The position numbers were made by a program, and so were the translations under genes. From Millisia brevis NBRC 105863 (lineage in GTDB: Bacteria; Actinomycetota; Actinomycetes; Mycobacteriales; Mycobacteriaceae), in assembly GCF_001552615.1 (NCBI RefSeq), contig NZ_BCRN01000004.1, forward strand, positions 1 through 64,000: DNA of 64,000 bases, written 5' to 3'. Positions within the stretch are counted from its first letter, which is position 1; each line of letters begins with the position of its first letter. The notes under the pieces were generated by a model. The model saw nothing but the letters and a program-made list of their open reading frames with translations, was not told where the DNA came from and did not search any database. Shown one piece after another: positions 21,467-59,025 of this stretch.

Positions 21467-22854
21467 CGGCCACCCGATCCGAGCCGAACGCCGTCGAGAC
21501 CGCGACGCGCATCCCGCTGTCGACATCGATCGGCCTGGGCACCGGCTCGATGTTGCAGCCGCTCAACTCGTCGATGATCGCGGTGGCCGTGGTGGCGATC
21601 GCCGCCCACTACGGCTCGCCGTCGGCGGCCACCTGGGTGATCTCGGCGTTGTACATCGCGACCGCGGTGACCGGACCCGCCGCCGGTCGGCTGGGGGAGT
21701 TGTTCGGCGCCCGGCGGGTGTACACCGCCGGCCTGGTGCTGATCGCGATCGGCTCGATCATGGGCACGCTCGCCCCGAGCATCGGCTGGCTGATCGCCGC
21801 CCGGGTGATCCTCGGCATCGGAACGGCGACCCAGTATCCGACGGCGATGACGATCGTGCGGACCATGGCCGAACGCACCGGCGCGCGTACCTCCTCGGCG
21901 ATCGCGGTGCTGTCGGTCTGCGCCCAGTCGATGGTCGCCCTCGGGCCGACGCTCGGCGGCCTGCTGGTGGGGCTGCTCGGCTGGCAGTCGATCTTCTGGG
22001 TCAACCTGCCGATGGTGGTGGTGACGTTCCTCTGGGTGCGGCGGGTGACGCCGGCCGATACCCAGCGGATCGGTGGGCTGCGGCCCGCGCTCGCGGCCCT
22101 GGACGTACCGGGGCTGGCGCTCTTCCTGGGGCTGCTGACCTCGACGATGTTCCTGCTGCTGTCCCTGGGCGGGAGTCCGGCGTGGTGGCTGCTGCCGGTG
22201 ATCGTGGTGCTCGCCGCCGGATTCGTCGCCCGGGAGCGGCGCACCACCGGACCCTTTATCGACGTGCGGGCCCTCGTGCGCAACCGGGCCCTGACCCTGA
22301 CCCTCGGGCGCACCTTCGCGGTCTACACCTGCTTCTACTGCATCTTCTTCGGGGTACCGCAGTGGTTGATGACCGAACGCGGCTTCTCGGCGATGACCGC
22401 CGGGCTGTTGATGCTGCCGGTGGCGGTCACCGGGATCTGCGCGACGATGCTGGCCACGGCGATCAATACCCGGGCCGGGGCGCGGGTCACCCTGGCGATC
22501 GGCATGGTCGGTCTGCTGATCGCCGGTCTGGCGCTCGGGCTCGCCGAGACGGTCGAAACCCCGCTGATCGGCCTGGTGCTGGTGTCGTTCCTGCTCGGAA
22601 TACCGAACGGGTTCAACAACATCGGGAATCAGAACGTCATCAATGCGGTCTCGGGTGTGCACGAGGTCGGAACCGCGATCGGCATGTACCGCACCGTGCA
22701 GTACATGGCGGCGAATATGGCCGCGGTCGTGCTGGAATTGGCGCTGCGTCCCGGCGACGGAGGACTGCGGACCGTCGGTCTCTTCCTGGTGATCGTGGCC
22801 GCGCTAGGGTTGGTCGGCGTCCTCGCCTCGCGGACCCTGCGTTCGGTGCGGTAG
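21463..22854 (+). CDS. DHA2-type (14-helix) MFS exporter
   Basis: A 463-residue drug:H+ antiporter-2 carrier with about 14 hydrophobic helices. It has GRLGELFGARRVY after helix 2 (motif A) and the conserved GPTLGGLLVGLLGWQSIFWVN near helix 5 (motif C region). Such pumps export drugs or, in actinobacteria, siderophores. The iron box before its regulator makes a siderophore or iron-linked substrate plausible, but no siderophore gene is nearby. Translation is coupled to marR through the GTGA overlap. Confidence 0.88.
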   Translation: MTATRSEPNAVETATRIPLSTSIGLGTGSMLQPLNSSMIAVAVVAIAAHYGSPSAATWVISALYIATAVTGPAAGRLGELFGARRVYTAGLVLIAIGSIMGTLAPSIGWLIAARVILGIGTATQYPTAMTIVRTMAERTGARTSSAIAVLSVCAQSMVALGPTLGGLLVGLLGWQSIFWVNLPMVVVTFLWVRRVTPADTQRIGGLRPALAALDVPGLALFLGLLTSTMFLLLSLGGSPAWWLLPVIVVLAAGFVARERRTTGPFIDVRALVRNRALTLTLGRTFAVYTCFYCIFFGVPQWLMTERGFSAMTAGLLMLPVAVTGICATMLATAINTRAGARVTLAIGMVGLLIAGLALGLAETVETPLIGLVLVSFLLGIPNGFNNIGNQNVINAVSGVHEVGTAIGMYRTVQYMAANMAAVVLELALRPGDGGLRTVGLFLVIVAALGLVGVLASRTLRSVR

Positions 22855-22901
22855 TCGATCGGCGGGTGCTCGCACGATCGCCGTCGATTCGAGGAGCCGC
22901 C

Positions 22902-23732
22902 TTGTCCCTGCGCAGATTTCACCAGGTCGACGTCTTCGCCGGCGCTCCTCTCGGTGGCAATCCGGTCGCGGTGATCGTCGACGCCGAGGGGTTGTCGGAT
23001 CAGCAGATGGCGGCGACCGCGCGCTGGACGAACCTGTCGGAGACGACCTTCGTGCTGCCCCCGACCGATCCGGCCGCCGACTACCGGCTGCGGATCTTCA
23101 CCCCGGGCGGCGAGTTGCCCTTCGCCGGGCATCCGACCCTCGGCAGCGCCTTCGCCTGGCTCTCGACGGTCGGCGATCCGGGGCGCGACCTGATCCAGGA
23201 ATGTGGCGCCGGACTGGTCGCCGTCCGGTTCACGCAGGGCCGCCCGGCCTTCGCCGCGCCGGCCCTGGTGCGGACCGGGCCGGTCGACGAACACGCCCTG
23301 GGTCGGGTGGCGGCGTCGCTGCGGATCGCCCGTAGCGACATCCTCGATCACCAGTGGGTCGACAACGGACCCGGCTGGCTGGGGGTCCTGCTGGAGTCCG
23401 GAGCCCGCGTTCGCGCGCTGGAACCGGATTTCGGCGCGATGGGCGATCTCGCCGTCGGGGTGGTCGGACCGCAGGTGCACCGCGAGGAGACCGCCTTCGA
23501 GGTCCGTGCTTTCGCCCCCGGTCACGGCGTCGACGAGGATCCGGTGACCGGCAGCCTCAACGCCGGTCTCGCGCAGTGGTTGCGCGGCGTCGGCCGCGCG
23601 CCGGCCACATTCGTCGCCGCCCAGGGCACCGCGATGGGGCGCAGTGGACGCGTCCACATCCACGACGACGGCGAGAACATCTGGGTCGGCGGCTCCTGCG
23701 TCTCGCGGGTGATCGGCACCTTCGACCTGTAG
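22902..23732 (+). CDS. PhzF family isomerase
   Basis: A 276-residue PhzF/YddE-like enzyme with the two-fold diaminopimelate-epimerase fold. Glu47 in the NLSET motif is the catalytic acid/base, and GHPTLGSAFAWL and DPVTGSLNAGL mark the two halves. PhzF of phenazine pathways isomerises dihydrohydroxyanthranilate, but most homologues, like this isolated one, have unknown substrates. The start is a TTG at 22902, supported by GAGGAG 5 bases upstream and by the canonical N-terminus beginning right there. Confidence 0.87.
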   Translation: MSLRRFHQVDVFAGAPLGGNPVAVIVDAEGLSDQQMAATARWTNLSETTFVLPPTDPAADYRLRIFTPGGELPFAGHPTLGSAFAWLSTVGDPGRDLIQECGAGLVAVRFTQGRPAFAAPALVRTGPVDEHALGRVAASLRIARSDILDHQWVDNGPGWLGVLLESGARVRALEPDFGAMGDLAVGVVGPQVHREETAFEVRAFAPGHGVDEDPVTGSLNAGLAQWLRGVGRAPATFVAAQGTAMGRSGRVHIHDDGENIWVGGSCVSRVIGTFDL

Positions 23733-23837
23733 CCCCTTCCGAAGAAGTGATCCGCATCGCTACCTGTCCAGTTGGGTGGTGCACGTCATACTTCGCGCCG
23801 GCACTCTGGACGGTGGAATCGAGGCGAGGAGGCCAGG

Positions 23838-25586
23838 GTGACGCAGGCCCGAACAGAGCAGGATGCGACGGGGCAGGACGCCGCGGCGCAGGGTCCGTCG
23901 GAAGCGCATCGGATCTATCGAGCGGCGCGCGACACGTTGCTCGCGGCCAACGGCGACTACGACCGGGCCGTCGCCGAATTCCGGTGGCCGCAGCTGCCGG
24001 AGACGTTCAACTGGGCCGTCGACTGGTTCGACGTGATAGCGCGGGGCAACGACGCGACCGCCCTGTGGATCGTCGAAGAGGACGGCAGCGAGGCGAAGTA
24101 CAGCTTCGACGACATCGCGACGCGCTCGGACCGGGTCGCCCGCTGGCTGGCCGGCCACGGTATCGGCAAGGGTGACGCGGTCATCCTGATGCTGGGTAAC
24201 CGGGTGCAGCTGTGGGAGTCGATGCTCGCGGTCATGAAGCTCGGCGCCATCCTGATGCCGACGACCACCGCGGCCAATGACCTCGCCGATCGCATCGAGC
24301 GGGGCGCGGTCAAGGCGGTCCTCGTCGCGGGCGCCGATGCGGCGGTCTTCGACGACGTGCCGGGCGACTTCCTGCGCATCGCGATCGACGGGCTGCCCGA
24401 GGGCCGCGAGGGCTGGCTCGACTACGCCGACGCCGAGTCGATCGCCGATCCGGAACCCTTCACCACGGTGACCGTGCCGAGCGATCCGCTGCTGCTCTAC
24501 TTCACCTCCGGCACCACCAGCCGGCCGAAGTTGGTGCAGCACACCCAGATTTCGTATCCGCTCGGCCACCTGACGACGATGTACTTCCTCGGTCTGAAGC
24601 CCGGCGATGTGCACCTGAACATCAGTTCGCCGGGGTGGGCGAAGCACGCGTGGAGCTGCTTCTTCGCGCCCTGGATCGCCGAGTCGACCATCTTCATCTA
24701 CAACTACGCCCGCTTCGACGCCTCGGCCCTGCTCGAGCAGATCCGACGCGCCGGGGTCACCACCTTCTGCGCGCCGCCGACGGTGTGGCGCATGCTGATT
24801 CAGGCCGATCTCAGCGGTGGCGGCGGGTCGATCCGCGAGGCGATCGGTGCCGGTGAGCCGCTCAACCCCGAGGTGATCGCCCGCGTCGAGCGCGACTGGG
24901 GGGTGACGATCCGCGACGGCTACGGCCAGACCGAGACCACCGCGCTGATCGCGAACGTCCCCGGCGCGCGGCTCGTGCCCGGTTCGATGGGCCGTTCGCT
25001 GCCCGGTGTGCCGGTGGCGGTGATCGATCCGATGACCGGTCGGCCCGCCGACGAGGGCGAGATCTGTCTGGATCTGTCACAGCATCCGCTCAACCTGATG
25101 ACCGGCTACGCCGACGACCCGGAGCGCACCGCCGCCGCGATGGCCGACGGGTACTACCACACCGGCGACGTCGCGACGATCGACAGCGACGGGTACATCA
25201 CCTTCGTCGGCCGCACCGACGACGTCTTCAAGGCGTCCGACTACAAGATCTCGCCCTTCGAGCTCGAGAGCGTGCTGATCGAGCATCCGGCGGTCGCCGA
25301 GGCCGCGGTGGTGCCGGCGCCCGACGAGACGCGACTGGCGGTGCCGAAGGCCTATGTCGCGTTGGCTGCCGGGTGGGAGCCGACCCGCGAGACCGCCTTC
25401 GAGATCCTGCAGTACGCCCGCAAGAACCTCGCCCCCTACCAGCGGGTGCGGCGGCTCGAGTTCTTCGAACTGCCCAAGACGCTGTCCGGGAAGATCCGCC
25501 GGGTCGAGCTGCGGGCCCGCGAGCACGGCATCGAGGAACTCGACAACGAGTGGCGCGACAGCCAGTTCCCCGAACTGCGGAGCTGA
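23838..25586 (+). CDS. medium-chain-type acyl-CoA synthetase
   Basis: A 582-residue adenylate-forming enzyme that makes an acyl-AMP and then an acyl-CoA. Motifs in order are the P-loop YFTSGTTSRPKLV, the core GYGQTETTALI, the hinge GRTDDVFKASDYKISPFELE and the C-terminal KTLSGKIRRVE with the catalytic Lys. The length and the SPGWAKHAWSCFFAPW stretch fit the ACSM/benzoate-medium-chain branch. GTG 23838 has GAGGAGG 5 bases upstream. It stands alone and ends in a long bidirectional hairpin. Confidence 0.88.
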   Translation: MTQARTEQDATGQDAAAQGPSEAHRIYRAARDTLLAANGDYDRAVAEFRWPQLPETFNWAVDWFDVIARGNDATALWIVEEDGSEAKYSFDDIATRSDRVARWLAGHGIGKGDAVILMLGNRVQLWESMLAVMKLGAILMPTTTAANDLADRIERGAVKAVLVAGADAAVFDDVPGDFLRIAIDGLPEGREGWLDYADAESIADPEPFTTVTVPSDPLLLYFTSGTTSRPKLVQHTQISYPLGHLTTMYFLGLKPGDVHLNISSPGWAKHAWSCFFAPWIAESTIFIYNYARFDASALLEQIRRAGVTTFCAPPTVWRMLIQADLSGGGGSIREAIGAGEPLNPEVIARVERDWGVTIRDGYGQTETTALIANVPGARLVPGSMGRSLPGVPVAVIDPMTGRPADEGEICLDLSQHPLNLMTGYADDPERTAAAMADGYYHTGDVATIDSDGYITFVGRTDDVFKASDYKISPFELESVLIEHPAVAEAAVVPAPDETRLAVPKAYVALAAGWEPTRETAFEILQYARKNLAPYQRVRRLEFFELPKTLSGKIRRVELRAREHGIEELDNEWRDSQFPELRS

Positions 25587-46957: not shown

Positions 46958-47217
46958 TCGAGCACTCCTCGCGTGTGACGGGACGTCAGCCGAGCCCGCA
47001 GCGTGACGATCGCGAGCGACACCGGTCCGACGTTTCGACTCGAGAGTAGCCCGCCGCATCGGTGGTGCTCCGTGAGCGCTACCGCCCGCTGTGCTGCGCC
47101 CTTCCGGGCGCCCGCCGCCGACGGCCGCACCTCGGGGCGCCTACAGGAGGCCGCATGCCGGAGAGGCGCCCGCCGGGACCGCCGCCTCCGCGAGGCGGCG
47201 GCGCACCGGAGGTCGGG
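46958..47217. other. 260-bp gap with thiolase promoter and a terminator
   Basis: No gene is seen. The left part carries the thiolase leader, and the right end has the hairpin at 47179-47201. Confidence 0.5.
47179..47201 (-). terminator. hairpin terminator after the SGNH hydrolase gene
   Basis: CCGCCGCCTC-CGC-GAGGCGGCGG is a perfect 10-bp stem with a 3-nt loop, 17 bases beyond the stop of the minus-strand hydrolase. No T tract follows. Confidence 0.55.
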
Positions 47218-48096
47218 TCAGGCGAGCTCGGGGACCGCGCTGCGCTGCGGGGCCACAGTGATCCGTGCCGCCGTCTCCCGGTCGCGAGCGAGAGTCTCGA
47301 TCAACGTCGGGACCAACCGCTCGGCGGCCAGCGCGTAACCGTCGCCGGACGGGTGGAAGCGGTCCGGGGCGAGGTAGCGGTCCGGCTCGGCGTAGAACAG
47401 ATCGGCCAGTTCGCCCAGATGGATCGCGACGCCGCCCGCCCGGACGGTCGCCTGCGCCTGGGCGCGGGCCAGACTTCGACCCCACTGGCGGATCAGCGCG
47501 CGCAGCGGCTGCGGGATGTCCGGCACCACACCGAGATCCGGGCAGGTGCCGACGACGACGGTCGTGCCGCTGGCGCGCAGCCGCGAGACCACCGATCCCA
47601 GCCGACCCGCCGCCCGCGATACCGGAGCCTTCTTGGTGACGTCGTTCGCCCCCACCAGGATGATCGCCGCATCCGGCGGGGGACCGACGATGTACATCGC
47701 GTCGAGCTGGCCGACCAGGCCCTTGGAGGTGGCGCCCTGGATCGCCTTGGTGGACAACCGGACCCGCATACCGGTGGCCTCGGCGACGCCGCGGGCGACC
47801 CGGACCCCCGGGGTCTGGTCGGCGTACCAGCAGCCCTGACCGGCGGCGGTCGAGTCGCCGAAGATCATCAGGTGCAGGTCGTGCGGGCGGTCGCGCAGCC
47901 ACGGCTGCACCGGCAGACCGGCCTCGTAGATCCCGTCCGCGCGCGGCGGAATCCGGGTATCGCGACCGATGATCTGTCGAGCGGTCGCCGCCTGGGCGAG
48001 CAGGCGGTTGTAGGCCGCCGCCGCGCCGGCACCGGAACAGGCCGCCAGGGCGGCTCCGGTCACCGAAACCGCCCGCATATCCGGACGTGTCACCAT
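47218..48096 (-). CDS. SGNH/GDSL hydrolase
   Basis: 292 residues. Block I FGDSTAAG (Ser82), block III GAND and block V DRFHPSGDGY (Asp/His) complete an SGNH esterase. The N-terminus has a hydrophobic segment ending in LAAC (Cys20), so it may be a lipoprotein acting on cell-wall or lipid acetyl esters; a plain signal anchor is the alternative. GGGAGG 7 bases upstream supports the ATG at 48096. It is divergent from cbs with a 126-bp gap. Confidence 0.85.
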   Translation of the reverse strand: MVTRPDMRAVSVTGAALAACSGAGAAAAYNRLLAQAATARQIIGRDTRIPPRADGIYEAGLPVQPWLRDRPHDLHLMIFGDSTAAGQGCWYADQTPGVRVARGVAEATGMRVRLSTKAIQGATSKGLVGQLDAMYIVGPPPDAAIILVGANDVTKKAPVSRAAGRLGSVVSRLRASGTTVVVGTCPDLGVVPDIPQPLRALIRQWGRSLARAQAQATVRAGGVAIHLGELADLFYAEPDRYLAPDRFHPSGDGYALAAERLVPTLIETLARDRETAARITVAPQRSAVPELA

Positions 48097-48222
48097 GCCG
48101 ATACCTCCCGTCGGCCAGAAGTGGGTAGAAGCCACGATTCTAGCGATTGCGGGGCCGGGTGCGTCGGGGATCGCCCGCGGGCCGGGGTGACGGGCCCAGT
48201 ATTGCTCTGGGACAATCGGACC

Positions 48223-49605
48223 ATGCGCATCGCGGACAGCGTCGTCGATCTGATCGGCGGGACGCCACTGGTCAAGCTCAATTCGGTGGTTCCCGCAGGG
48301 GCCGCCACCGTCGCGGTCAAGGTGGAGTACCTCAATCCCGGCGGTAGCTCCAAGGACCGCATCGCGGTGAAGATGATCGACGCCGCCGAGGCATCGGGGG
48401 AGTTGCGGCCCGGTGGCACGATCGTCGAACCCACCTCGGGCAATACCGGCGTCGGACTGGCGCTGGTCGCCCAGCAGCGCGGCTACAACTGCATCTTCGT
48501 CTGCCCCGACAAGGTCGGCGAGGACAAGCGCAACGTCCTGCGCGCCTACGGAGCCAAGGTCGTCGTATGTCCCACCGCGGTTCCCCCGGAGCATCCGGAC
48601 AGCTACTACAACGTCTCCGATCGGCTCGTCCAGGAGATCGAGGGCGCCTGGAAGCCCAACCAGTACGCCAACCCCGCCGGCCCGCAGAGCCACTACGAGT
48701 CGACCGGACCGGAGATCTGGAACGACACCGACGGCACGCTGACGCACTTCGTCGCCGGAGTCGGCACCGGCGGCACGATCACCGGCACCGGCCGCTACCT
48801 CAAGGATCAGAACCCCGACGTCCAGGTGGTCGGCGTCGACCCGGAGGGGTCGGTCTACTCCGGCGGCACCGGCCGGCCGTATCTGGTCGAGGGTGTCGGC
48901 GAGGACTTCTGGCCCGCGGCCTACGACCCGTCGGTGCCCGACCGCATCATGGCGGTCTCCGATGCCGACTCCTTCGAGATGACCCGTCGGCTCGCCCGCG
49001 AGGAGGGCCTGCTGGTCGGCGGCTCCTGCGGCATGGTCGTCGTCGCGGCGGTCGAATTGGCCAAGGAGATCGGGCCGGACGGGCTGATCGTCGCGCTGCT
49101 CCCGGACGGCGGACGCGGCTACCTCGGCAAGATCTTCAACGACGCCTGGATGGCCTCCTACGGCTTCCTGCGCCACTCGCTCGACGGCGACAAGCCCGCG
49201 CCCACGGTCAAGGACGTGCTGCGCGGCAAGTCCAAGGAGCTGCCCGATCTGGTGCACACCCACCCGTCGGAAACCCTGCGCGATGCGATCGAGATCCTGC
49301 GCGAATACGGGGTCTCCCAGATGCCCGTCGTGGGCGCCGAGCCGCCGATCACCGCGGGCGAGGTCGCCGGCAGCGTCAGCGAACGCAACCTGCTCAGCGC
49401 GGTCTTCGAAGGGCGCGCGACCCTCTCGGATGCGGTGTCGAAGCATATGGAACCCGCCCTCCCGTTGATCGGCGCCGGGGAGGACATCTCGGTGGCGACC
49501 AAGGAGTTCGGTGATACCGACGCGTTGATGGTGGTCGAGGACGGCAAGCCGATCGGCGTGATCACCCGACACGACCTGTTGGGCTTCCTGTCGGCCACCC
49601 GCTGA
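48223..49605 (+). CDS. cbs: cystathionine beta-synthase
   Basis: 460 residues. The PLP Lys44 (NPGGSSKDR), the phosphate loop GTGGTITG and SGNTG are in place, followed by two CBS regulatory domains (about 340-460), as in the mycobacterial Rv1077 type. It condenses serine (or O-acetylserine) with homocysteine to cystathionine. MetB is encoded just downstream, so the pair links homocysteine and cysteine pools. The ATG lacks a ribosome site and may be leaderless (GACAAT 6 bases upstream). A strong terminator separates it from metB. Confidence 0.92.
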   Translation: MRIADSVVDLIGGTPLVKLNSVVPAGAATVAVKVEYLNPGGSSKDRIAVKMIDAAEASGELRPGGTIVEPTSGNTGVGLALVAQQRGYNCIFVCPDKVGEDKRNVLRAYGAKVVVCPTAVPPEHPDSYYNVSDRLVQEIEGAWKPNQYANPAGPQSHYESTGPEIWNDTDGTLTHFVAGVGTGGTITGTGRYLKDQNPDVQVVGVDPEGSVYSGGTGRPYLVEGVGEDFWPAAYDPSVPDRIMAVSDADSFEMTRRLAREEGLLVGGSCGMVVVAAVELAKEIGPDGLIVALLPDGGRGYLGKIFNDAWMASYGFLRHSLDGDKPAPTVKDVLRGKSKELPDLVHTHPSETLRDAIEILREYGVSQMPVVGAEPPITAGEVAGSVSERNLLSAVFEGRATLSDAVSKHMEPALPLIGAGEDISVATKEFGDTDALMVVEDGKPIGVITRHDLLGFLSATR

Positions 49606-49646
49606 CCCGCGGCCGACGGAATCGGCTGCACGAAATCGTTGACATC

Positions 49647-49688
49647 CGGCGGGTCCGCGACGACGAATCGGTCGTCGCGGACCCGCCG
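49647..49688 (+). terminator. intrinsic terminator between cbs and metB
   Basis: An 18-bp stem (one arm GGCGGGTCCGCGACGAC plus an outer C-G pair) with loop GAATCG is followed by GTTTTC. It is the best intrinsic terminator in the window and means metB needs its own promoter. Confidence 0.85.
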
Positions 49689-49710
49689 TTTTCGTCCGTC
49701 GGCGGCTCGC

Positions 49711-49722
49711 TACGCTGGGCCG
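49711..49722 (+). promoter_or_regulatory. -10 element placing metB on a leaderless mRNA
   Basis: TACGCT (49711-49716) fits TANNNT and ends 6 bases before the ATG, with no ribosome site between. The transcript would start at or next to the A of the ATG. The -35 is not clear. Confidence 0.5.
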
Positions 49723-50901
49723 ATGAGCGAACGACGCAGTCGAACGGACGCGACATCGTGGCAGGGGTTCTCCACGCGCGCCGTACACGCCGGCTACGAG
49801 CCGGACCCCGTCACCGGTGCGGTCAACGTGCCGATCTTCGCCAGTTCGACCTTCAAACAGGACGGAGTCGGGGGGCTTCGCGACGGATTCGAGTACGCCC
49901 GCACCGGTAACCCGACCCGTCGCCCGTTGGAGGACAACCTGGCGGCCCTCGAGTCCGCGGCCTACGGTCGCGCGTTCTCCTCGGGTATGGCCGCGACCGA
50001 CTGCCTGCTGCGATCGGTGCTGCGCCCCGGCGATCACCTGGTGATCCCGAACGACGCCTACGGCGGCACCTTCCGGCTGATCGACAAGGTCTTCACCGAA
50101 TGGGGAATCACCCATTCGGTGGCGCCGGTATCCGATCCGGACGCCGTGCGCGCCGCGATCCGCCCGGAGACCAAGCTGGTGTGGCTCGAGACCCCGACCA
50201 ACCCGCTGCTGAACATCGGTGATATCGAGGCGTTGGCCGATATCTCCCATCAGGCCGGCGCGAAGCTGGTGGTGGACAACACCTTCGCCTCGCCCTACCT
50301 GCAGCAGCCGATCTCCCTCGGCGCCGATGTGGTGCTGCATTCGACCACCAAGTACATCGGCGGCCACTCCGACGTCGTCGGCGGCGCCCTGGTGACCAAC
50401 GACGAGGAACTCGACACCAAGTTCGCGTTCCTGCAGAACGGCGCCGGCGGCGTGCCGGGCCCCTTCGACGCCTTCCTGACGCTGCGCGGCATCAAGACCC
50501 TCGCCCTGCGGATGGACCGGCACAGCGACAACGCCGAGCGGGTTGTCGATTTCCTGACCGGGCACGCGGCGATCTCCCGGGTGCTCTACCCGGGCCTGGC
50601 CGACCATCCGGGCCATCTGGTGGCGCAGAAGCAGATGAAGCGCTTCGGCGGCATGGTCTCGGTGCGTCTGGCCGGTGGCCGCGAGGCCGCCGAGGCGCTG
50701 TGCTCGCGGACCGAGATCTTCATCCTCGCCGAGTCGCTCGGCGGCGTCGAGTCGCTGATCGAGCATCCGGCCGCGATGACCCACGCCTCGACCGCGGGAT
50801 CGCTGCTGGAGGTTCCGGACGATCTGGTGCGCCTGTCGGTGGGCATCGAGGACGCCTCCGACCTGGTCGGCGACCTGGAGAATGCGCTGCGCGGTCTGTA
50901 G
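49723..50901 (+). CDS. metB: cystathionine gamma-synthase
   Basis: 392 residues of the Cys/Met PLP family. The cofactor Lys210 sits in HSTTKYIGGHSD, with the upstream phosphate loop SSGMAATD and the active-site Tyr of YARTGNPTR. It joins an activated homoserine to cysteine, or degrades cystathionine in the reverse direction. It follows cbs in the usual mycobacterial order but has its own promoter. A hairpin terminator ends it. Confidence 0.92.
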   Translation: MSERRSRTDATSWQGFSTRAVHAGYEPDPVTGAVNVPIFASSTFKQDGVGGLRDGFEYARTGNPTRRPLEDNLAALESAAYGRAFSSGMAATDCLLRSVLRPGDHLVIPNDAYGGTFRLIDKVFTEWGITHSVAPVSDPDAVRAAIRPETKLVWLETPTNPLLNIGDIEALADISHQAGAKLVVDNTFASPYLQQPISLGADVVLHSTTKYIGGHSDVVGGALVTNDEELDTKFAFLQNGAGGVPGPFDAFLTLRGIKTLALRMDRHSDNAERVVDFLTGHAAISRVLYPGLADHPGHLVAQKQMKRFGGMVSVRLAGGREAAEALCSRTEIFILAESLGGVESLIEHPAAMTHASTAGSLLEVPDDLVRLSVGIEDASDLVGDLENALRGL

Positions 50902-50971: not shown

Positions 50972-52750
50972 TCAGGACCCGGCGTGCGCGGTGTTGTTGA
51001 CGGCGGTGTTCTCGACCGCCCTGTCTTCGGCCGGCTCGGTGAACGTCAGACGCACCGAGATCGGATCGCTCTCCATCGCCCGGAAGGCCGCGCCGAAGAC
51101 CGGCGCGAGCGCCGGCGTCGGGGCGAAGCCGCGGGCGCGGGCCACCACGTCGTCGTCGGGCAGTAGCTGCGCGGTCGCCTCGACCCATCGGCCGTCCCGC
51201 TTGATCCGTACCTTCGGCTGGGCGGCGACGTTCTGCGCCCACCCCGACCGCATCCCGTGCTGGCTGATCACCCAGGCGCCGGTGGTATCGAAGTTGGCGG
51301 TCACCGGAACCACCCGGGTCTGCCCGCTCCGGCGGCCGATGGTCTCCAGTTCCGCGGCGAGGGAGGAGGTCAGGCCCAGTCGGGAGAGCGCGGCGACCGT
51401 CGGATTCATCACGTACCGACCGGCGGCCCGGTCGAGGTGAAACTTGCGGCGGGCCCGCGTCGTCGGATCCTGCGCGGTGCGGCGGGACCCGCGCAGCGCG
51501 TCGAATCCGTTGCGCTGCACGGTCGTCACGGCGGTCCGCCAGAGGGAGCGATCGGCGTCGGAGGGCAGGCCCGCGCCGAGCCGGTGCAGTTGGTCGGTAT
51601 GCCATTGCAGATCGAGGGCGCCCTCGGCGCTGCGCCGGGTACTGCCGCCCACCCCGGCCGGCAACGGCAGCCGCACCGCATGGGTCGGCAGGGTGTCGAG
51701 CTCGCCGGTGAGCAGGGCGCGTGCCGCGTCCGGTACCACCGCGGCGGGCCGACCGATGCCGACCACATCGCAGGCGCCGGAGGCCAGGGCCTCCTCGATA
51801 CCGGCGCGGGTGCGGAACCCACCGGTCACCGCCAGCGGGATACCGGGCGCCAGATCCCGCACGGTGGCGGCATAGTCGAGGAAATACGCCTCGCGGGCAC
51901 GGGTGCGGGCCGACTTCTCCGCCTGTCCCATCATCGCCGGCGATTCGTAGCTGCCGCCGCTGATCTCGAGCAGATCGATGCCCTCGTCGGCCAAGAGCGA
52001 GATCACCGTGCGCGACTCGTCCTCGGTGAAGCCGCCGCGTTGGAAATCGGCGGAGTTCAACTTCACGCCGACCGCGAAGCCCGGAGCGACAGCGGCGCGG
52101 ACGGCCCGCACGATCTCGAGCAGGAACGCCGCGCGCGCCTCGATCGACCCACCCCACGCGTCGGTGCGCCGGTTGGCCAGCGGCGAGAGGAATTGGGAGA
52201 TCAGGTAGCCGTGGGCACCGTGGATCTCGACACCGTCGAATCCGAAACGTTGGGCCAGGCTCGCGGTGGTCGCGAAGCGCTCGATGATCTCGCGAATCTC
52301 CGTGTCGGTGAGTTCGCGAGGTGCCGGGATGCCGGGGATCGCGAGGCCGACGGCGGAGGGGGCCACCGTGCGCCCGATCGTCGTGATCGGATTCGCCTGC
52401 CGGCCGGGATGATTGATCTGCATCCAGACCGGGGTGCCGCCGGCGCGGGCGTTGTCGGCCCACCGGGTGAACGCCTCGGCGTGCGCGTCGGACTCGAGCA
52501 CGACATTGCCCGGCTCACCGAGGTAGCGACCGTCGACCATGACGTTTCCGGTGATCACCAGCCCGTAGCCGCCCTCGGCCCACCGGGAGTAGAGCCGGTC
52601 GAGACGCTCGTCGGGGCGGGCGAGGTCGTCGCCGAGCCCCTCGCTCAGGGCCGCCTTCATGATCCGATTCGGCAGGGTGAGGCCGGCCGGCAGCGTCAGT
52701 GGGGTGGAAGGGGTCACGGGGGTGGAGGGGGTCACGGTCGTATCCGGCAT
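50972..52750 (-). CDS. Old Yellow Enzyme fused to a Ddn-type F420 nitroreductase domain
   Basis: 592 residues in two enzymes. Residues 20-420 form an NADH:flavin oxidoreductase barrel: ITGNVMVDGRY, QINHPGRQ, the His pair of EIHGAHGYL (177, 180), NRRTDAWGGS and the C-terminal FMN loop VTGGF/GIGRP. Residues 444-575 match deazaflavin-dependent nitroreductases: LETIGRRSGQTRVVPV, WVISQHGMRSGWAQNVAAQPKVRI. OYE reduces activated alkenes with FMN and NAD(P)H; Ddn uses F420H2. The N-terminus has a TPSTPVTPSTP repeat. A GAAAGG supports the ATG at 52750. Confidence 0.85.
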   Translation of the reverse strand: MPDTTVTPSTPVTPSTPLTLPAGLTLPNRIMKAALSEGLGDDLARPDERLDRLYSRWAEGGYGLVITGNVMVDGRYLGEPGNVVLESDAHAEAFTRWADNARAGGTPVWMQINHPGRQANPITTIGRTVAPSAVGLAIPGIPAPRELTDTEIREIIERFATTASLAQRFGFDGVEIHGAHGYLISQFLSPLANRRTDAWGGSIEARAAFLLEIVRAVRAAVAPGFAVGVKLNSADFQRGGFTEDESRTVISLLADEGIDLLEISGGSYESPAMMGQAEKSARTRAREAYFLDYAATVRDLAPGIPLAVTGGFRTRAGIEEALASGACDVVGIGRPAAVVPDAARALLTGELDTLPTHAVRLPLPAGVGGSTRRSAEGALDLQWHTDQLHRLGAGLPSDADRSLWRTAVTTVQRNGFDALRGSRRTAQDPTTRARRKFHLDRAAGRYVMNPTVAALSRLGLTSSLAAELETIGRRSGQTRVVPVTANFDTTGAWVISQHGMRSGWAQNVAAQPKVRIKRDGRWVEATAQLLPDDDVVARARGFAPTPALAPVFGAAFRAMESDPISVRLTFTEPAEDRAVENTAVNNTAHAGS

Positions 52751-52923: not shown

Positions 52924-55206
52924 TCAGAGCGGAGCGGCGACGAGCCACTCGATCATCTGCGCGAAGGTGGCGTTGGGCATCTCGAACTGAATCAGGTTGT
53001 CCCGGTAGGGATCATCCTCGAACAGCACGAGGACCCAATTGCCTTCCGGGGACTCGAATCGGTACATATTCATCCGCGTCCCACGGTCGCTGACGTGGGT
53101 ATACGGGGTGGGCAGGGCGGTCGGCAGGTTGTTGACGTACTGCTGGACGCCCGATGGATCGGCGTAGGTGAACAGTTCGAAGTCGGCGCCACCGCGCGCG
53201 GCGCAGTCGAACTTCGACTGGAACTGCGCGTAGACCGGCCCGTCCGCGGTATCGGTCGCCAGGCAGGCCATATTCAGATACCCGACCGCCAGCGGCGCCG
53301 CCGGCAGGATCTCGGAGAACTCCGAGCGGGTCTGGGCCGCGGCCGCCCAGATGGCTTCCTCCGCGGAGGAGCCGCTGCCGGTCGCCGCCGTGGTGGTCGA
53401 GGCGATCGTGGAGGCGGCGGTGGTCGCGGGCGCGGCGGAGGCGACGGTTGTTGTCGTGGCGCCGCCGGCGGCCTGGCTGTCCGAGCCGCCGCCGAGCACC
53501 AGGAATGCGGTGATGCCCGCGGCGATCAGCAGCACGACCCCGGCGATCGCGGCGCCGATCACCAGGCCCCGGTTCGACTCGGTCGGTGGGGCCGGGGCAG
53601 CGGCCGAGGTGCTCGTCGAACCGATCAGCTGCGAGCGCGATCCGGTCCACTCCACCGTCGGCTCCGGCTCGGGGCGCGACCGCGCGGGCGGTGAGCCCGC
53701 ACGCTCGCTCTCCCGGTAGGGCGGGTTCGATGGATGTGCCGGGCTGCCGGCCGGGTGGCCCGAGGTCGGTGGGCCGCCCGCCGAGGGAGGGCCGGACGGG
53801 TAGGGGATCGCGCCGGACGGATACGGAACGGCTCCCGGCGGCGGGGTGGCGCCGCGCTGAGCGTCCGAGTGCGGGCCGGAACGGTACCCGTCGGAAGGCG
53901 GGCCCGAGGAGCGGCCGTCGGACGGCGGCCCGGACCGGTACCCGTCGGAAGGCGGGCCCGAAGCGCGGCCGTCGGAGGGTGGGCCCGAAGCGCGGCCGTC
54001 GGAGGGTGGGCCCGAGCGGTAGCCGTCGGGCGGGGGGCCGGACGATCGGTAGCCGGTGGACGGCTGTCCGGAGCGGTGGGGCGGGTTCGCGGCGGGCGGC
54101 GCGCCCGCGCCGGGGCCGAAGGGGGCGGCGGTCGGACCCGGGACGAAGGGGGCGGCGAAACCGGCCGGGGCCTGCGGCTGGGACCGGGGACCCGACGGGT
54201 GCGAGCGCGCCCCGGAAGGATGCCGGCCGACAGACGCGGGGCCGGGAGGTTGGGAGCCCGGAGATTGCGAACGCGGCCCGGATGGCGCGCCCGGTCCCTG
54301 CGGCGGAAAGCCGGGCGGCGGATACGGAGGTGCGATCTCGGTCGGTCGCAGCGCGGGCCCGACCGGGCGCAGGGCGGCCCGGGCGGCGGCGGCAAAATCG
54401 GCGCAGGACGGGAACCGGTCGGTCGACTCCTTGGCCATCCCGCGCTCGATCACCGCGTCCAGTGCGGGCGACACGTCCCGACGCCGCTGAGCGAGTGCGG
54501 GCACCCGACCCGACAGATGCCCGGCGACGATCTCCGCCTGGTTCGGCCCCGGGAACGGCGGCGCCCCGGAGAGCAGCGCGAACAGGGTGGCGGCGAGGGC
54601 GTACTGGTCGGTGCGGCCGTCGAGGGTGCGCCCGTACAGCACCTCGGGAGCGGCGAACGGCAGCGAGGAGATGATCGTGCCGGTCTCGGTCAGCCCGGTC
54701 TCTTCGGCGACGGCCTTGGCGATCCCGAAGTCGGTCAGCAGGACGCGTTCGGGTCCCTGCGGCGTCGGCGAGAGCATGATGTTCGCCGGTTTGACGTCGC
54801 GGTGCAGCACCCCGAGCGAGTGCGCGTGATCGAGCCCGCGGGCGATCTCGGAGACGATGTACACCGCCCGGTCCACCGCGAGCGGGCCCTCGGCGATCAC
54901 GGTGGCCGCGGCGTCGCTTCCCGAGATGAACTGCATCGAGATCCACGGATGGCCGTCGTCGAAGCCGCGGTCGTACACGGTGACCACGTTCGGGTGCTCC
55001 ACCCGGGCGGCGTGATCGGCCTCGCGTTCGAACCGGGTGACAAATGTCGGGTCGGCGGTATGCGTCGGGGTGAGCATCTTGAGCGCGACGGCGCGAGGCA
55101 GCCGCGGATGGCGGGCCCGGTAGATCCGACCCATGCCGCCTTGACCGATCAAGGTCTCGATCGTGTAGCCGGCGAAGACGTCGCCGGGGCGCAGTCCGTC
55201 AGCCAC
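52924..55206 (-). CDS. transmembrane Ser/Thr protein kinase (PknD/PknH-like)
   Basis: 760 residues. The kinase domain (14-275) has GQGGMG, Lys43, HRDVKPAN (135-142), DFG (159-161) and APE (186-188), so it should be active. A 270-residue Pro/Gly/Ser linker follows, including seven 9-residue repeats (SGPPSDGYR type, 389-451), then one transmembrane helix (548-571), a Thr/Ala stalk and a 160-residue extracytoplasmic domain with two Cys (ACLATD, FDCAAR), as in PknH-like sensors. The ligand is unknown. The TerD-VWA gene lies upstream on the same strand. Confidence 0.88.
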   Translation of the reverse strand: MADGLRPGDVFAGYTIETLIGQGGMGRIYRARHPRLPRAVALKMLTPTHTADPTFVTRFEREADHAARVEHPNVVTVYDRGFDDGHPWISMQFISGSDAAATVIAEGPLAVDRAVYIVSEIARGLDHAHSLGVLHRDVKPANIMLSPTPQGPERVLLTDFGIAKAVAEETGLTETGTIISSLPFAAPEVLYGRTLDGRTDQYALAATLFALLSGAPPFPGPNQAEIVAGHLSGRVPALAQRRRDVSPALDAVIERGMAKESTDRFPSCADFAAAARAALRPVGPALRPTEIAPPYPPPGFPPQGPGAPSGPRSQSPGSQPPGPASVGRHPSGARSHPSGPRSQPQAPAGFAAPFVPGPTAAPFGPGAGAPPAANPPHRSGQPSTGYRSSGPPPDGYRSGPPSDGRASGPPSDGRASGPPSDGYRSGPPSDGRSSGPPSDGYRSGPHSDAQRGATPPPGAVPYPSGAIPYPSGPPSAGGPPTSGHPAGSPAHPSNPPYRESERAGSPPARSRPEPEPTVEWTGSRSQLIGSTSTSAAAPAPPTESNRGLVIGAAIAGVVLLIAAGITAFLVLGGGSDSQAAGGATTTTVASAAPATTAASTIASTTTAATGSGSSAEEAIWAAAAQTRSEFSEILPAAPLAVGYLNMACLATDTADGPVYAQFQSKFDCAARGGADFELFTYADPSGVQQYVNNLPTALPTPYTHVSDRGTRMNMYRFESPEGNWVLVLFEDDPYRDNLIQFEMPNATFAQMIEWLVAAPL
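53854..54042 (-). repeat. 27-bp in-frame tandem repeat in the kinase linker
   Basis: Seven 27-bp units encode SGPPSDGRA, SGPPSDGYR or SGPPSDGRS. Neighbouring units are nearly identical at the DNA level, so copy number may vary between strains by slippage. Confidence 0.8.
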
Positions 55207-55349: not shown

Positions 55350-56675
55350 TCACGACAGGATGCGGGCCACGCGCGCGGCCCGCAGCCAGTCCGGGAACTC
55401 GCCGAGCAGCCGGCGGTAGAGTTCGGCGTCGTCGATCCGGTCGATATCGGCGACCGAGAAGAAGCCGACATTGTCGACCACCCGGCCCTCCATCTCGTCG
55501 AGTTGGGACAGCAGGCCGAAGTTGTTGTTCCCGATACCGACGAACTGCCAGAACGCCGGCAACTCGGCCGCCCGCTTCAGCAGATCGCGGATCTGGGTGC
55601 GCTTGCTGAACCCGCCGTCGGTGAAGAAGAGCACCAGGGTGGGTGTCGACTGCCCGCGCAGTGTGTCCAGCAGGTGCTCCATGATCGGGATCTCGTCGTT
55701 GACCGCGCCGATCGCGTTGTAGTCGTACCCCTCGTGCGTCCCGCGCATGTGGACGAAGTCACCCAACCACCGGTCGAGGTATTCGACCTTCACATCCGGT
55801 ACCCGGAGGAACTTCTTGGCGTAGAAGTAGGCCTCGAGCGAGCCGTCGTCGTCGAGGGCGATCGCGACGGGCACCATCTTCTCGATCACCCGATGCACCA
55901 CCCCGGTGCGGTATTCGGCGGACATCGAGCCGGTCTTGTCCATCACCAGCACGATCCGGGCGCGTTCGTGCTGCGCCTGCTTGGTCAGCAGGACCTTGTG
56001 CACCTGCTCCTTGCGCAGGTTGAGGGTGCGCCGCTTCTCCAGGGAGAGCTTCTCCTCCCCGGCGACCGAACGGACCCCGCCGGCGGGTGCCGGGGACTGC
56101 GGTGTGGGGGACGCGGATGTGGGGGACGCGGATGTGGGGGAAGGCGGCGCCGCAGCAGGCGTGGCCGGCGCCGGCGAATCGTCGACGACGACGCCGTGTT
56201 CGCGGACCAGATCGGCGAACCCGCCGTCCCATCCGGCCGAGACGTTGCGGATCTTCCAGGCGCCCTGGCGGCGGTAGATCTCGATCAGGACCGCAGAGCG
56301 CTCCGAGGTCAGGCCCGCCGACGGCGCGGCGATCGACGTCCCGCCGTCGGCGGTCACCACCGCGAGCCCGGGAATCCCCGCCAACGATCCGGGGACGGCG
56401 TCGTCGAGGGTCACCGCCACGGCGAGGCGCTCGATCGCGGCCGGTACCCGCGACGGGTCGATCGCCAATCGATCGGGTGCGGTCAGGCGCACGCCGCCCT
56501 CCGGCGAGGTGGGCTGATTGAAGAAGACGAAGTCGGCGTCCGTGCGCACGGTGCCCGCCGCGGTCAATTGGAAGACCATCAGATCGACCGTGCCCTGCCG
56601 GGCGCCGGAGACGGCGATGTCGAGCGGTGCACCGGACAGGGACGTGTTGGCCCCGCGGCCGAGGTCGGGCGACAT
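55350..56675 (-). CDS. TerD domain-VWA domain protein
   Basis: 441 residues. Residues 1-168 match the TerD/tellurium-resistance stress domain (RTDADFVFFNQPTSPEGGV; LIEIYRRQGAWKIRNVSAGWDGG). After a Pro/Ser/Ala linker with repeated PTSAS, residues 240-430 are a von Willebrand A domain with a modified MIDAS, DKTGS (Asp246), and LFFTDGG. TerD proteins bind calcium, and VWA proteins assemble metal-dependent complexes. The classic ter neighbours (TerC, TerB) are absent here. A kinase gene follows on the same strand. Confidence 0.85.
   Translation of the reverse strand: MSPDLGRGANTSLSGAPLDIAVSGARQGTVDLMVFQLTAAGTVRTDADFVFFNQPTSPEGGVRLTAPDRLAIDPSRVPAAIERLAVAVTLDDAVPGSLAGIPGLAVVTADGGTSIAAPSAGLTSERSAVLIEIYRRQGAWKIRNVSAGWDGGFADLVREHGVVVDDSPAPATPAAAPPSPTSASPTSASPTPQSPAPAGGVRSVAGEEKLSLEKRRTLNLRKEQVHKVLLTKQAQHERARIVLVMDKTGSMSAEYRTGVVHRVIEKMVPVAIALDDDGSLEAYFYAKKFLRVPDVKVEYLDRWLGDFVHMRGTHEGYDYNAIGAVNDEIPIMEHLLDTLRGQSTPTLVLFFTDGGFSKRTQIRDLLKRAAELPAFWQFVGIGNNNFGLLSQLDEMEGRVVDNVGFFSVADIDRIDDAELYRRLLGEFPDWLRAARVARILS
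56102..56142 (-). repeat. 15-bp tandem repeat in the TerD-VWA linker
   Basis: GGATGTGGGGGACGC recurs nearly three times, coding the PTSAS repeats of the linker between the TerD and VWA domains. Confidence 0.7.
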
Positions 56676-57423: not shown

Positions 57424-59025
57424 GTGGAGCACACCGTGACCGAGACGGTGCCGTCCACCACAGCGGTGGGCGCGCCGACCCTCGACGACGGCTACGCCCG
57501 CGATCTCGACGGCCTGTACGTGCCGTGGCGTCCGTCGCCGGCCCCCGCGCCGGCGGCGGTGCGCCTCAACACCGAGCTGGCCGACGACCTCGGCATCGAT
57601 CCGCGGTGGTTGGGCTCGCCGGAGGCGCTCGCGGTGTTCTCCGGCTCGGTGATTCCCGACGGGACGCGCCCGATCGCGCAGGCCTACGCCGGACACCAGT
57701 TCGGCGGCTTCGTCCCGATGCTCGGCGACGGTCGCGCCGCCCTGCTCGGCGAGGTGATCGACCGCGGCGGCCGGCGCCGCGATATCGCCCTCAAGGGTTC
57801 CGGCGCCACCCCCTTTTCCCGCGGCGGCGACGGCAAGGCCGCGCTCGGGCCGGTCCTGCGCGAATACCTGCTGGGCGAGGCGATGCACGCCCTCGGCATC
57901 CCGACCACCCGTGCGCTCGCCGCGGTCCGCACCGGTGAGACCGTCTTCCGCGACGCCGGGCCGGTACCCGGCGCGGTCCTGACCCGCGTCGCGTCCTCGC
58001 ACCTGCGCGTCGGCACGTTCGAGTTCGCCGTCCGGCGCGAGGGCGTGATCGATCGGCTCGCCGACTACGCGATCGCCCGGCACTACCCCGAAGCCGCCGA
58101 CGCGGCCGACCCCTACCTGGCGCTGCTGCGCGCCGTCGTCGAGGCGCAGGCGCGGCTGATCGCCGACTGGATGGGCGTCGGCTTCATCCACGGGGTGATG
58201 AACACCGACAACACCACCATCTCCGGGGAGACGATCGACTACGGCCCGTGCGCCTTCCTCGAGGCCTACGACCCGCGCACCGTCTTCTCCTCGATCGACC
58301 ACGGCGGCCGCTACGCCTTCGGCAACCAGCCCGCGATCATGCAGTGGAACCTCTCCCGCTTCGCCGAGACCCTGGTCGGCCTGTCCGCACAGCTGCCCGG
58401 CCCGAACGGAGAGCCGAAGGGGCCCGACGCGGTCATCGAGGAAATGATCGAGGTGCTCAACGGATTCGCCGGTCGGTACGCCGAACTGCGCAACCGCAAC
58501 CTCGCCGACAAGCTGGGCCTCGACGATCCGGACCCGACCCTGACCGAAGGCTTCCTGACGCTGCTCGAGACCCGCGGCGCCGATCACACCGGAGCCTTCC
58601 GGGCGCTGTCCGCGATCCCCGCCCGGCTGGCCGCGGTGGATTCCGCCGGAGCCGAAGCCCCCGTCACGGGACCGACAACCGATCGGGTCGACGATCCGGC
58701 CGACGCCCTGCGGACCATCCTCGGACCCGGCGACACCGCCGCGCTCGACGCCTGGCTCGCCGACTGGACCGCCGCCCTCGGCGATGCCCCCGACCGGCTG
58801 CGCGCGCGGACCGCGGCGATGCAGGCGGTCAACCCGATCTACATCCCACGCAACCACCTGGTCGAGGAGGCGTTGACCGCCGCTACCGCGGGCGACACGC
58901 AGCCCTTCACCGCCTTGCTCGACGTGCTGGCCGATCCCTGGACCGAACGCCCCGGGCTCGACCGCTACGCCACGGCAGCGCCGGTCGAGGTCACCGCCTG
59001 CTACCGCACTTTCTGCGGGACCTGA
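57424..59025 (+). CDS. selO: SelO/YdiU family protein adenylyltransferase
   Basis: 533 residues of the pseudokinase-like fold that transfers AMP to proteins, mainly redox enzymes. Family elements seen are AYAGHQFGGFVPMLGDGRA, DIALKGSGATPFSRGGDGKA, GIPTTRALAAVRTGE, GVMNTDNTTISGETIDYGPCAF (split here) and the C-terminal AMQAVNPIYIPRNH. The end, ACYRTFCGT, keeps a Cys near the C-terminus where eukaryotic SelO has selenocysteine. Its place behind msrA fits oxidative-stress control. The start is GTG 57424, with GTG 57436 as an alternative. Confidence 0.92.
   Translation: MEHTVTETVPSTTAVGAPTLDDGYARDLDGLYVPWRPSPAPAPAAVRLNTELADDLGIDPRWLGSPEALAVFSGSVIPDGTRPIAQAYAGHQFGGFVPMLGDGRAALLGEVIDRGGRRRDIALKGSGATPFSRGGDGKAALGPVLREYLLGEAMHALGIPTTRALAAVRTGETVFRDAGPVPGAVLTRVASSHLRVGTFEFAVRREGVIDRLADYAIARHYPEAADAADPYLALLRAVVEAQARLIADWMGVGFIHGVMNTDNTTISGETIDYGPCAFLEAYDPRTVFSSIDHGGRYAFGNQPAIMQWNLSRFAETLVGLSAQLPGPNGEPKGPDAVIEEMIEVLNGFAGRYAELRNRNLADKLGLDDPDPTLTEGFLTLLETRGADHTGAFRALSAIPARLAAVDSAGAEAPVTGPTTDRVDDPADALRTILGPGDTAALDAWLADWTAALGDAPDRLRARTAAMQAVNPIYIPRNHLVEEALTAATAGDTQPFTALLDVLADPWTERPGLDRYATAAPVEVTACYRTFCGT

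Follow-up and report, generated by a model that had tools for sequence, protein, structure and literature searches.

A recurrent fusion of an Old Yellow Enzyme with a predicted F420-binding reductase domain in Millisia brevis and related actinobacteria

In silico analysis of a 64,000-nucleotide stretch of Millisia brevis NBRC 105863 (contig NZ_BCRN01000004.1, positions 1 to 64,000; this whole stretch is called the window below) has revealed a gene in which an Old Yellow Enzyme (OYE) and an F420H2-reductase (FDOR) type domain are joined in one polypeptide. The cofactor sites of both halves look kept when their residues are compared with those of known enzymes, and relatives of the gene are found in Gordonia, Williamsia and Nocardia. 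The preferred reading, to which about an even chance is given, is that of a bifunctional reductase whose single chain carries two active sites, each charged separately, and serves one pathway.

Both domains are familiar, and as far as the open-access literature shows, it is their fusion that appears new. We assume that the architecture is very probably listed in domain databases. No report of an OYE-FDOR fusion was found among the titles and abstract beginnings of the open-access papers retrieved, which is weak evidence of absence. The available part of PMC5449967 makes no mention of “fusion” or “fused”; in that of PMC8498797 every “fusion” concerns F420-biosynthesis genes and “fused” is absent.

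Organization of the fused gene

The gene is located on the minus strand and consists of 592 codons, from ATG to stop, without interruption. Two Pfam domains have been identified within it, both above cut-off: Oxidored_FMN (PF00724) at residues 17-343 (161.6 bits against a cut-off of 27, E 3.9e-47) and F420H2_quin_red (PF04075) at residues 468-534 (51.2 bits against 22, E 1.8e-13). The preliminary description of an OYE and an F420-type domain in one polypeptide, with neither stop codon nor frameshift, is thereby borne out. The second half also matches the NCBIfam model TIGR00026, “nitroreductase family deazaflavin-dependent oxidoreductase”, at residues 467-552 (58.3 bits, cut-off 46.35). The OYE unit extends past its Pfam match; the alignment of stand-alone relatives ends at about residue 423. 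The elements of the gene are as follows:

50972..52750, minus strand: fused gene, OYE domain plus FDOR-type domain, 592 amino acids (single open frame; Pfam and NCBIfam matches)
51482..52702, minus strand: OYE unit, residues 17-423, made of the FMN barrel (17-343) and a C-terminal extension (344-423) with a conserved LQWHTDQ (Pfam; stand-alone relatives; fold match 7fev)
52205..52222, minus strand: OYE active-site segment, residues 177-182, with His177, His180 and Tyr182 (invariant in 46/46 aligned fused proteins)
51443..51490, minus strand: interdomain linker, residues 421-436, 16 residues (variable among fused proteins; low pLDDT)
51035..51466, minus strand: FDOR-type domain, residues 429-572, a low-confidence N-terminal helix and a predicted split beta barrel (Pfam 468-534; TIGR00026 467-552; separate model; fold matches)
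51314..51337, minus strand: predicted F420 tail-binding segment, residues 472-479, GRRSGQTR (conservation; match to Ddn contacts)
51230..51265, minus strand: predicted F420 phosphate, ribityl and proximal-glutamate segment, residues 496-507 (conservation in 46 fused proteins)

The C-terminal domain had been placed at residues 444-575. Its presence stands, and its limits are probably nearer to 429-572: in the full-length AlphaFold2 model the strands lie between 466 and 570, and residues 429-457 form a helix of low confidence (ten-residue block means of 47-51 over 431-460). Between the two halves, residues 418-436 are modelled at pLDDT <50, and the linker bounded by the invariant R420 and F437 is 14-51 residues long (median 16) in the 46 fused proteins. 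The longest one, of 51 residues, occurs in Nocardia wallacei (L023), where the linker has grown by in-frame Gly/Ala-rich near-repeats.

The OYE half

A TIM-barrel fold is predicted for the N-terminal half, the mean pLDDT exceeding 80 in 27 of the 33 blocks of ten residues that span 11-340, and the 50 fold matches listed all belong to the OYE family. The half matches the OYE profile and carries the active-site pattern His-x-x-His/Asn plus Tyr, as H177, H180 and Y182 in 46/46 fused proteins; the His pair lies exactly at 177 and 180, where it had been placed beforehand. Nine residues are kept in all 46 fused OYE halves: S36, Q111, H114, R117, H177, H180, Y182, K230 and R334. The roles of the residues follow those assigned in OYE1 and YqjM.

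The site is nearly the same when the second domain is missing. His180 and Tyr182 are present in all five paired and all 29 solo OYEs, His177 in 5/5 paired and 27/29 solo ones, and the catalytic and FMN-site residues among the 27 positions inspected are constant across fused, paired and solo forms, but for H177 to Q in 2/29 and G333 to A in 6/29 solo proteins. Just two residues, G38 and A407, pass a fused-versus-solo filter. The C-terminal extension is less constant, D380, H384, D386, R401 and W404 varying more. Judged by these residues, the OYE half would bind FMN.

The F420-type half

The separate model of the FDOR domain (m132f539ee3af) has a mean pLDDT of 77.9 and a poorly resolved N-terminal helix. 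Its top fold matches are FDOR-A structures (8d4w, 3r5l, 3r5r), with modest TM-scores of 0.49-0.52 by query and 0.60-0.72 by target, and the predicted model has the split beta-barrel fold, so that a C-terminal part lacking this barrel, which would have refuted the preliminary description, is not what the modelling shows. Since the lower matches include other split-barrel proteins, some of them FMN-binding, such as pyridoxine-phosphate oxidases and HutZ, the fold alone cannot decide between F420 and FMN. With a sequence profile of the domain, eight distinct PDB sequences were retrieved within an E limit of 0.003 (the best at 2.5e-5), all being Ddn chains or proteins titled deazaflavin/F420 reductases or F420-binding.

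For Ddn, the available text of PMC3267046 gives R54, T56, R60 and N91 as contacts of the F420 tail, K79 and the amides of M87 and W88 as lying near the phosphate, and W88 and P63 as ribityl contacts; in the related F420 enzyme nfa33440 a glutamine (Q73) takes the K79 position. In the fused protein R54, T56, R60, N91, K79, W88 and P63 align, in this order, with R473, S/T475, R479, N507, Q497, W504 and P482. These contact residues are found in 46/46 fused second halves, with Ser or Thr at 475, and they are identical in 9/9 solo FDOR rows and in six pair rows, bar one Met at 497. Further invariant residues of the 46 fused proteins are G476, H498, G499, R501 and G503; in a wider comparison that includes L044, position 501 is K in one of 47 fused rows, and Q497, H498, W504 and N507 are present in 47/47 fused, 9/9 solo and, the one Met at 497 excepted, 6/6 pair rows. 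The tail, phosphate and ribityl positions of the pocket are thus retained across orthologues, and the F420-binding capacity suggested for the C-terminal half is likely.

The label “Ddn-type” holds in part. Membership of the FDOR family and the predicted split barrel stand, but identity to three Ddn chains is 23-24% (Foldseek) and the counterparts of Tyr65, Tyr130, Tyr133 and Tyr136 are absent, being replaced in the 46 fused proteins by S/T/A, L/F/I, L/V/I/F and A/S/G/V/R, respectively, the alignment of the last three positions (helix D region) being weak. A tyrosine at the Tyr136 position occurs in two of the six pair rows (copies L040 and L122), and Ddn-like tyrosines are also absent from all nine solo FDORs. 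At position 496, which aligns with Ddn Ser78, 29 fused proteins have Ser and the other 17 have Cys. In the table available from PMC3267046, the Ddn mutants S78A, K79L, Y133F/L/A and Y65L/A are listed at <0.1, and Y65F at 71 in the last column, read here as per cent of wild type. As the Ddn tyrosines are not kept, the substrate, and perhaps the placement of the ring, must differ from those of Ddn, and the domain is best described as a predicted F420-binding FDOR-type domain, not as a Ddn equivalent.

The host genome encodes CofD (391.9 bits, cut-off 257.45), which is also above cut-off in three of the 14 control genomes, and an F420-dependent glucose-6-phosphate dehydrogenase (680.7, cut-off 420), which is so in none of the 14. 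With these two F420 marker genes present, F420H2 should be available in the host. Nine F420H2_quin_red matches have been detected in the same genome, all above cut-off.

Occurrence of fused, paired and solo forms

The same architecture, for which the preliminary description had called for a search, recurs widely among relatives. A scan of GTDB genomes yielded at least 574 confirmed relatives, of which the best 80 were kept, favouring full-length matches. These 80 comprise 46 fused genes (including L044, counted as fused despite a frame break inside its OYE half), five neighbouring gene pairs and 29 OYEs without an FDOR-like ORF in the examined DNA, which is short downstream of some of them (524 bases in L049, 629 in L055 and 823 in L064). 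Named hosts of the fusion are Nocardia, Rhodococcus, Gordonia, Williamsia, Hoyosella, Smaragdicoccus, Antrihabitans and Sciscionella. In three mycobacterial pairs (L075, L077, L078) the two genes overlap by an ATGA that contains both the OYE stop and the FDOR start; the halves of L040 are parted by a stop codon and a new start, and those of L065 by about 0.6 kb.

A sample of the host family, with up to eight candidates scored per genome, contains 24 fused genes by query coverage in 151 genomes, the window genome included, in 9 of 31 genera; a single ORF has been verified in 20 of the 24 (20 loci fetched). One further match (G060) is a gene pair, the same gene as L040, and in another (G131) the halves are separate matches that were not counted as fused. 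At least ten fused genes, besides the window's own, are common to the family sample and the 80 loci. Over the phylum, 396 genomes with three candidates scored in each gave two fused genes at E up to 1e-90, namely the window's own and G047. A frequency of 24/151 in the family against 2/396 over the phylum indicates that the fusion is centred on the host's own family. Sciscionella belongs to a different family, by the name given in the tree, and Millisia is represented by a single genome.

The solo forms tend to occur together: a close OYE is present in 11 of the 16 genomes with a solo FDOR versus 19 of the 109 without (Fisher p 5.5e-5, ancestry ignored), which leaves five solo-FDOR genomes without a close OYE. 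Some candidates for other fusions were rejected. Solo FDOR matches in long frames (L115, L119, L124) have no second domain by Pfam, and L115 has a plausible internal start from which the frame reads as a plain FDOR gene. A match reaching residue 492 (G327) turned out to be an OYE frame of 416 amino acids, with no FDOR-like frame in the surrounding 3 kb.

Phylogeny of the two halves

The tree of the OYE half was built from 83 rows: 45 fused loci and the window copy, five pairs, 29 solo OYEs and three paralogues from the window's own genome, with L044 left out. All 46 fused rows and three of the five pairs fall into one group (98/92), together with the solo OYEs L043, L046 and L047; the first two of these form long branches, and their exact position is uncertain. 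The two remaining pairs, L040 and L065, are outside this group. The label “fused” needs five changes on this tree, at least three of them forced by starred branches. In the short FDOR tree, based on 61 rows without L122, solo FDORs are scattered among the other rows and the label needs six changes, at least two of them forced. The changes on both trees point to repeated loss, splitting or joining of the halves, in one order or another, as the likely history. As solo OYEs are nested among fused rows, the physical link is dispensable. In the tree labels, some Rhodococcus loci (L017, L055, L057) appear as Cyanobacteriota, apparently through a clash of taxonomy names.

Proposed function and alternatives

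If the protein is a bifunctional reductase, the N-terminal OYE barrel would hold FMN, to be reduced by NAD(P)H, and the C-terminal split barrel would bind F420H2 transiently and hand hydride directly to a substrate of its own. The fusion would keep two reductases of one pathway equimolar and close together. In the shared pathway, an activated double bond or a quinone-like compound would probably be reduced, as would its product; two double bonds might be reduced, for instance, or a substrate and its product. Each half is found alone with the same site (29 of the 80 OYE loci; 9/9 solo FDORs compared), and several lineages have the OYE but not its partner, so that each half is probably a self-sufficient enzyme and a complete reductase. 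A shared pathway or substrate is suggested by the fusion together with the gene pairs: the pairs (5/80 loci, three with ATGA overlap) link both functions independently of the fusion, and the co-occurrence of solo FDORs and solo OYEs supports a shared pathway weakly. A precedent for independent domains is FbiC, whose halves, according to the available text of PMC8498797, appear to work by diffusion and not by direct transfer. On the other side, the loss of the ring and substrate tyrosines of Ddn could mean that the catalytic side of the F420 site is impaired, no conserved neighbourhood points to a shared pathway, five of the 16 solo-FDOR genomes have no close OYE, and the solo OYEs nested among fused ones show that the link can be dispensed with. 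Catalysis by both halves, like the pathway that they would share, is what we infer from these comparisons. With two working sites, the protein would be a natural, self-contained two-cofactor ene-reductase, tying F420 metabolism to a familiar family of biocatalysts and offering a ready system for asking whether hydride can pass between deazaflavin and flavin inside one protein; the conserved fusion and gene pair would then be a concrete clue to the roles of many actinobacterial F420 reductases.

A direct transfer, in which F420H2 would dock on the C-terminal domain and its hydride be passed to the FMN of the OYE, turning an NAD(P)H enzyme into an F420H2-driven ene-reductase, is considered unlikely. 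It would suit the short linker (median 16 residues) and the combination of kept F420 tail residues with missing Ddn substrate-side tyrosines, a pattern that a partner flavin in the role of substrate might explain; however, these tyrosines are gone from 9/9 solo FDORs as well, and the OYE site is nearly unchanged in proteins without the domain, G38 and A407 apart. Moreover, solo OYEs lie inside the fused group (L043 and L046 with unsure placement, and L047), and the relative placement of the two domains is ill-defined in the model, the linker having a pLDDT <50. Two separate sites are preferred to an F420-to-FMN relay because the OYE site is near-identical with or without the second domain and each half exists alone. 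Double reduction, one of the options raised in the preliminary description, would fit better than hydride channelling. In a true relay, a flavin ene-reductase would draw on the low-potential F420 pool within a single chain, and the protein would be the first deazaflavin-to-flavin fusion reductase in the open-access literature, kept across Nocardia, Rhodococcus, Gordonia, Williamsia and others.

A reading in which catalysis is left to the OYE half, the C-terminal domain serving as a sensor, anchor or oligomerisation piece that binds F420 or a lipid, is somewhat unlikely. The absence of the tyrosines contacting ring and substrate is compatible with such a role, FDOR-AA relatives are described as membrane-associated in mycobacteria (PMC8498797, available part), and the domain starts with a predicted low-confidence helix rich in basic residues; yet Q497, H498, W504 and N507 are near-invariant, as expected for a ligand site under selection. 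A read-through or mis-assembly fusing two neighbouring genes has a negligible probability. Overlapping or near-adjacent gene pairs do occur in relatives, but the joined frame is present in 46 of the best 80 loci and 24 times in the 151 family genomes, and its recurrence in so many assemblies rules an artefact out.

Relation to known proteins

The top match of the OYE half is OYE6 (PDB 7fev), both by profile (E 1.9e-87) and by fold (E 5.1e-31), the fold alignment spanning 429 columns with 32% identity. The two have in common the FMN barrel, the His-His-Tyr active site and the C-terminal extension. OYE6 differs in having Thr in place of Ser36 and a length of 443-448 residues, with no fused F420-type domain. 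From the shared name, 7fev would be the same protein as ArOYE6, a fungal Class III enzyme with the core residues His196, His199 and Tyr201 (PMC4002455, available part).

The C-terminal half resembles FDOR-A proteins and Ddn (3r5r, 8d4w MSMEG_2850, 7kl8 Rv1558) in its predicted split-barrel fold, its PF04075 and TIGR00026 matches and its residues for the F420 tail, phosphate and ribityl. In contrast to these proteins it is joined to an OYE, lacks the four Ddn tyrosine counterparts and has a loop after strand 3 that is two residues shorter (own alignment), and identity in the fold alignments to the three structures is 18-23%.

An OYE barrel with a second redox module on the same chain is also present in 2,4-dienoyl-CoA reductase (1ps9), 2-naphthoyl-CoA reductase (6qkg) and the mycofactocin-system OYE (TIGR03997). 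Their extra modules are FeS and FAD/NAD domains, whereas the fused protein carries an FDOR split barrel. Among the NCBIfam models TIGR03997 gives the highest score, 185.6 bits, which is far below its cut-off of 793.15. FbiC and FbiB are likewise two-domain fusions in F420 metabolism whose parts are separate elsewhere (PMC8498797, available part), but they make F420, while the fused protein is predicted to use it.

Gene neighbourhood

The fused gene is flanked on one side by a convergent gene for a Cys/Met-metabolism PLP enzyme (49639-50901, plus strand), and its other neighbour, on the same strand, is a protein kinase gene (52924-55206, minus strand), both by Pfam. No gene family conserved beside the fused gene across genera was found when the neighbours in 81 loci were clustered (above 35% identity, more than half covered). 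Once frames that overlap the fused gene are set aside, the widest cluster reaches 17 of the 81 loci. Its one member examined with Pfam, which was applied to ten proteins, each standing for one cluster, is an MFS transporter. A catechol-dioxygenase-like cluster lies a few kb off in 13 fused loci.

In some actinobacteria, genes for an SDR and an alpha/beta hydrolase come after the solo OYE. In three Mycobacterium records (L058, L060, L063) and an actinobacterial MAG (L064), the start of the SDR-cluster gene overlaps the solo OYE stop by four bases. Genes of the alpha/beta-hydrolase cluster are also located downstream of the OYE in L058, L060 and L063, a possible operon that could reveal the substrate.

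Several other genes of the window deserve mention. By translation, the frame at 47062-49605 (plus strand) is cystathionine-beta-synthase-like, its true start lying well inside the long ORF, and together with the PLP-enzyme gene that follows it looks like a transsulfuration pair. The kinase has, by translation, a long Pro/Ser/Gly-rich region with “SGPPSDG” near-repeats before an apparent membrane stretch. At 55350-56675 (minus strand) a TerD domain and a TerF-type vWA domain form one protein. Elsewhere the window encodes a PhzF-like protein (22182-23732, plus strand), an AMP-binding enzyme (23772-25586, plus strand) and a SelO protein adenylyltransferase (57424-59025, plus strand).
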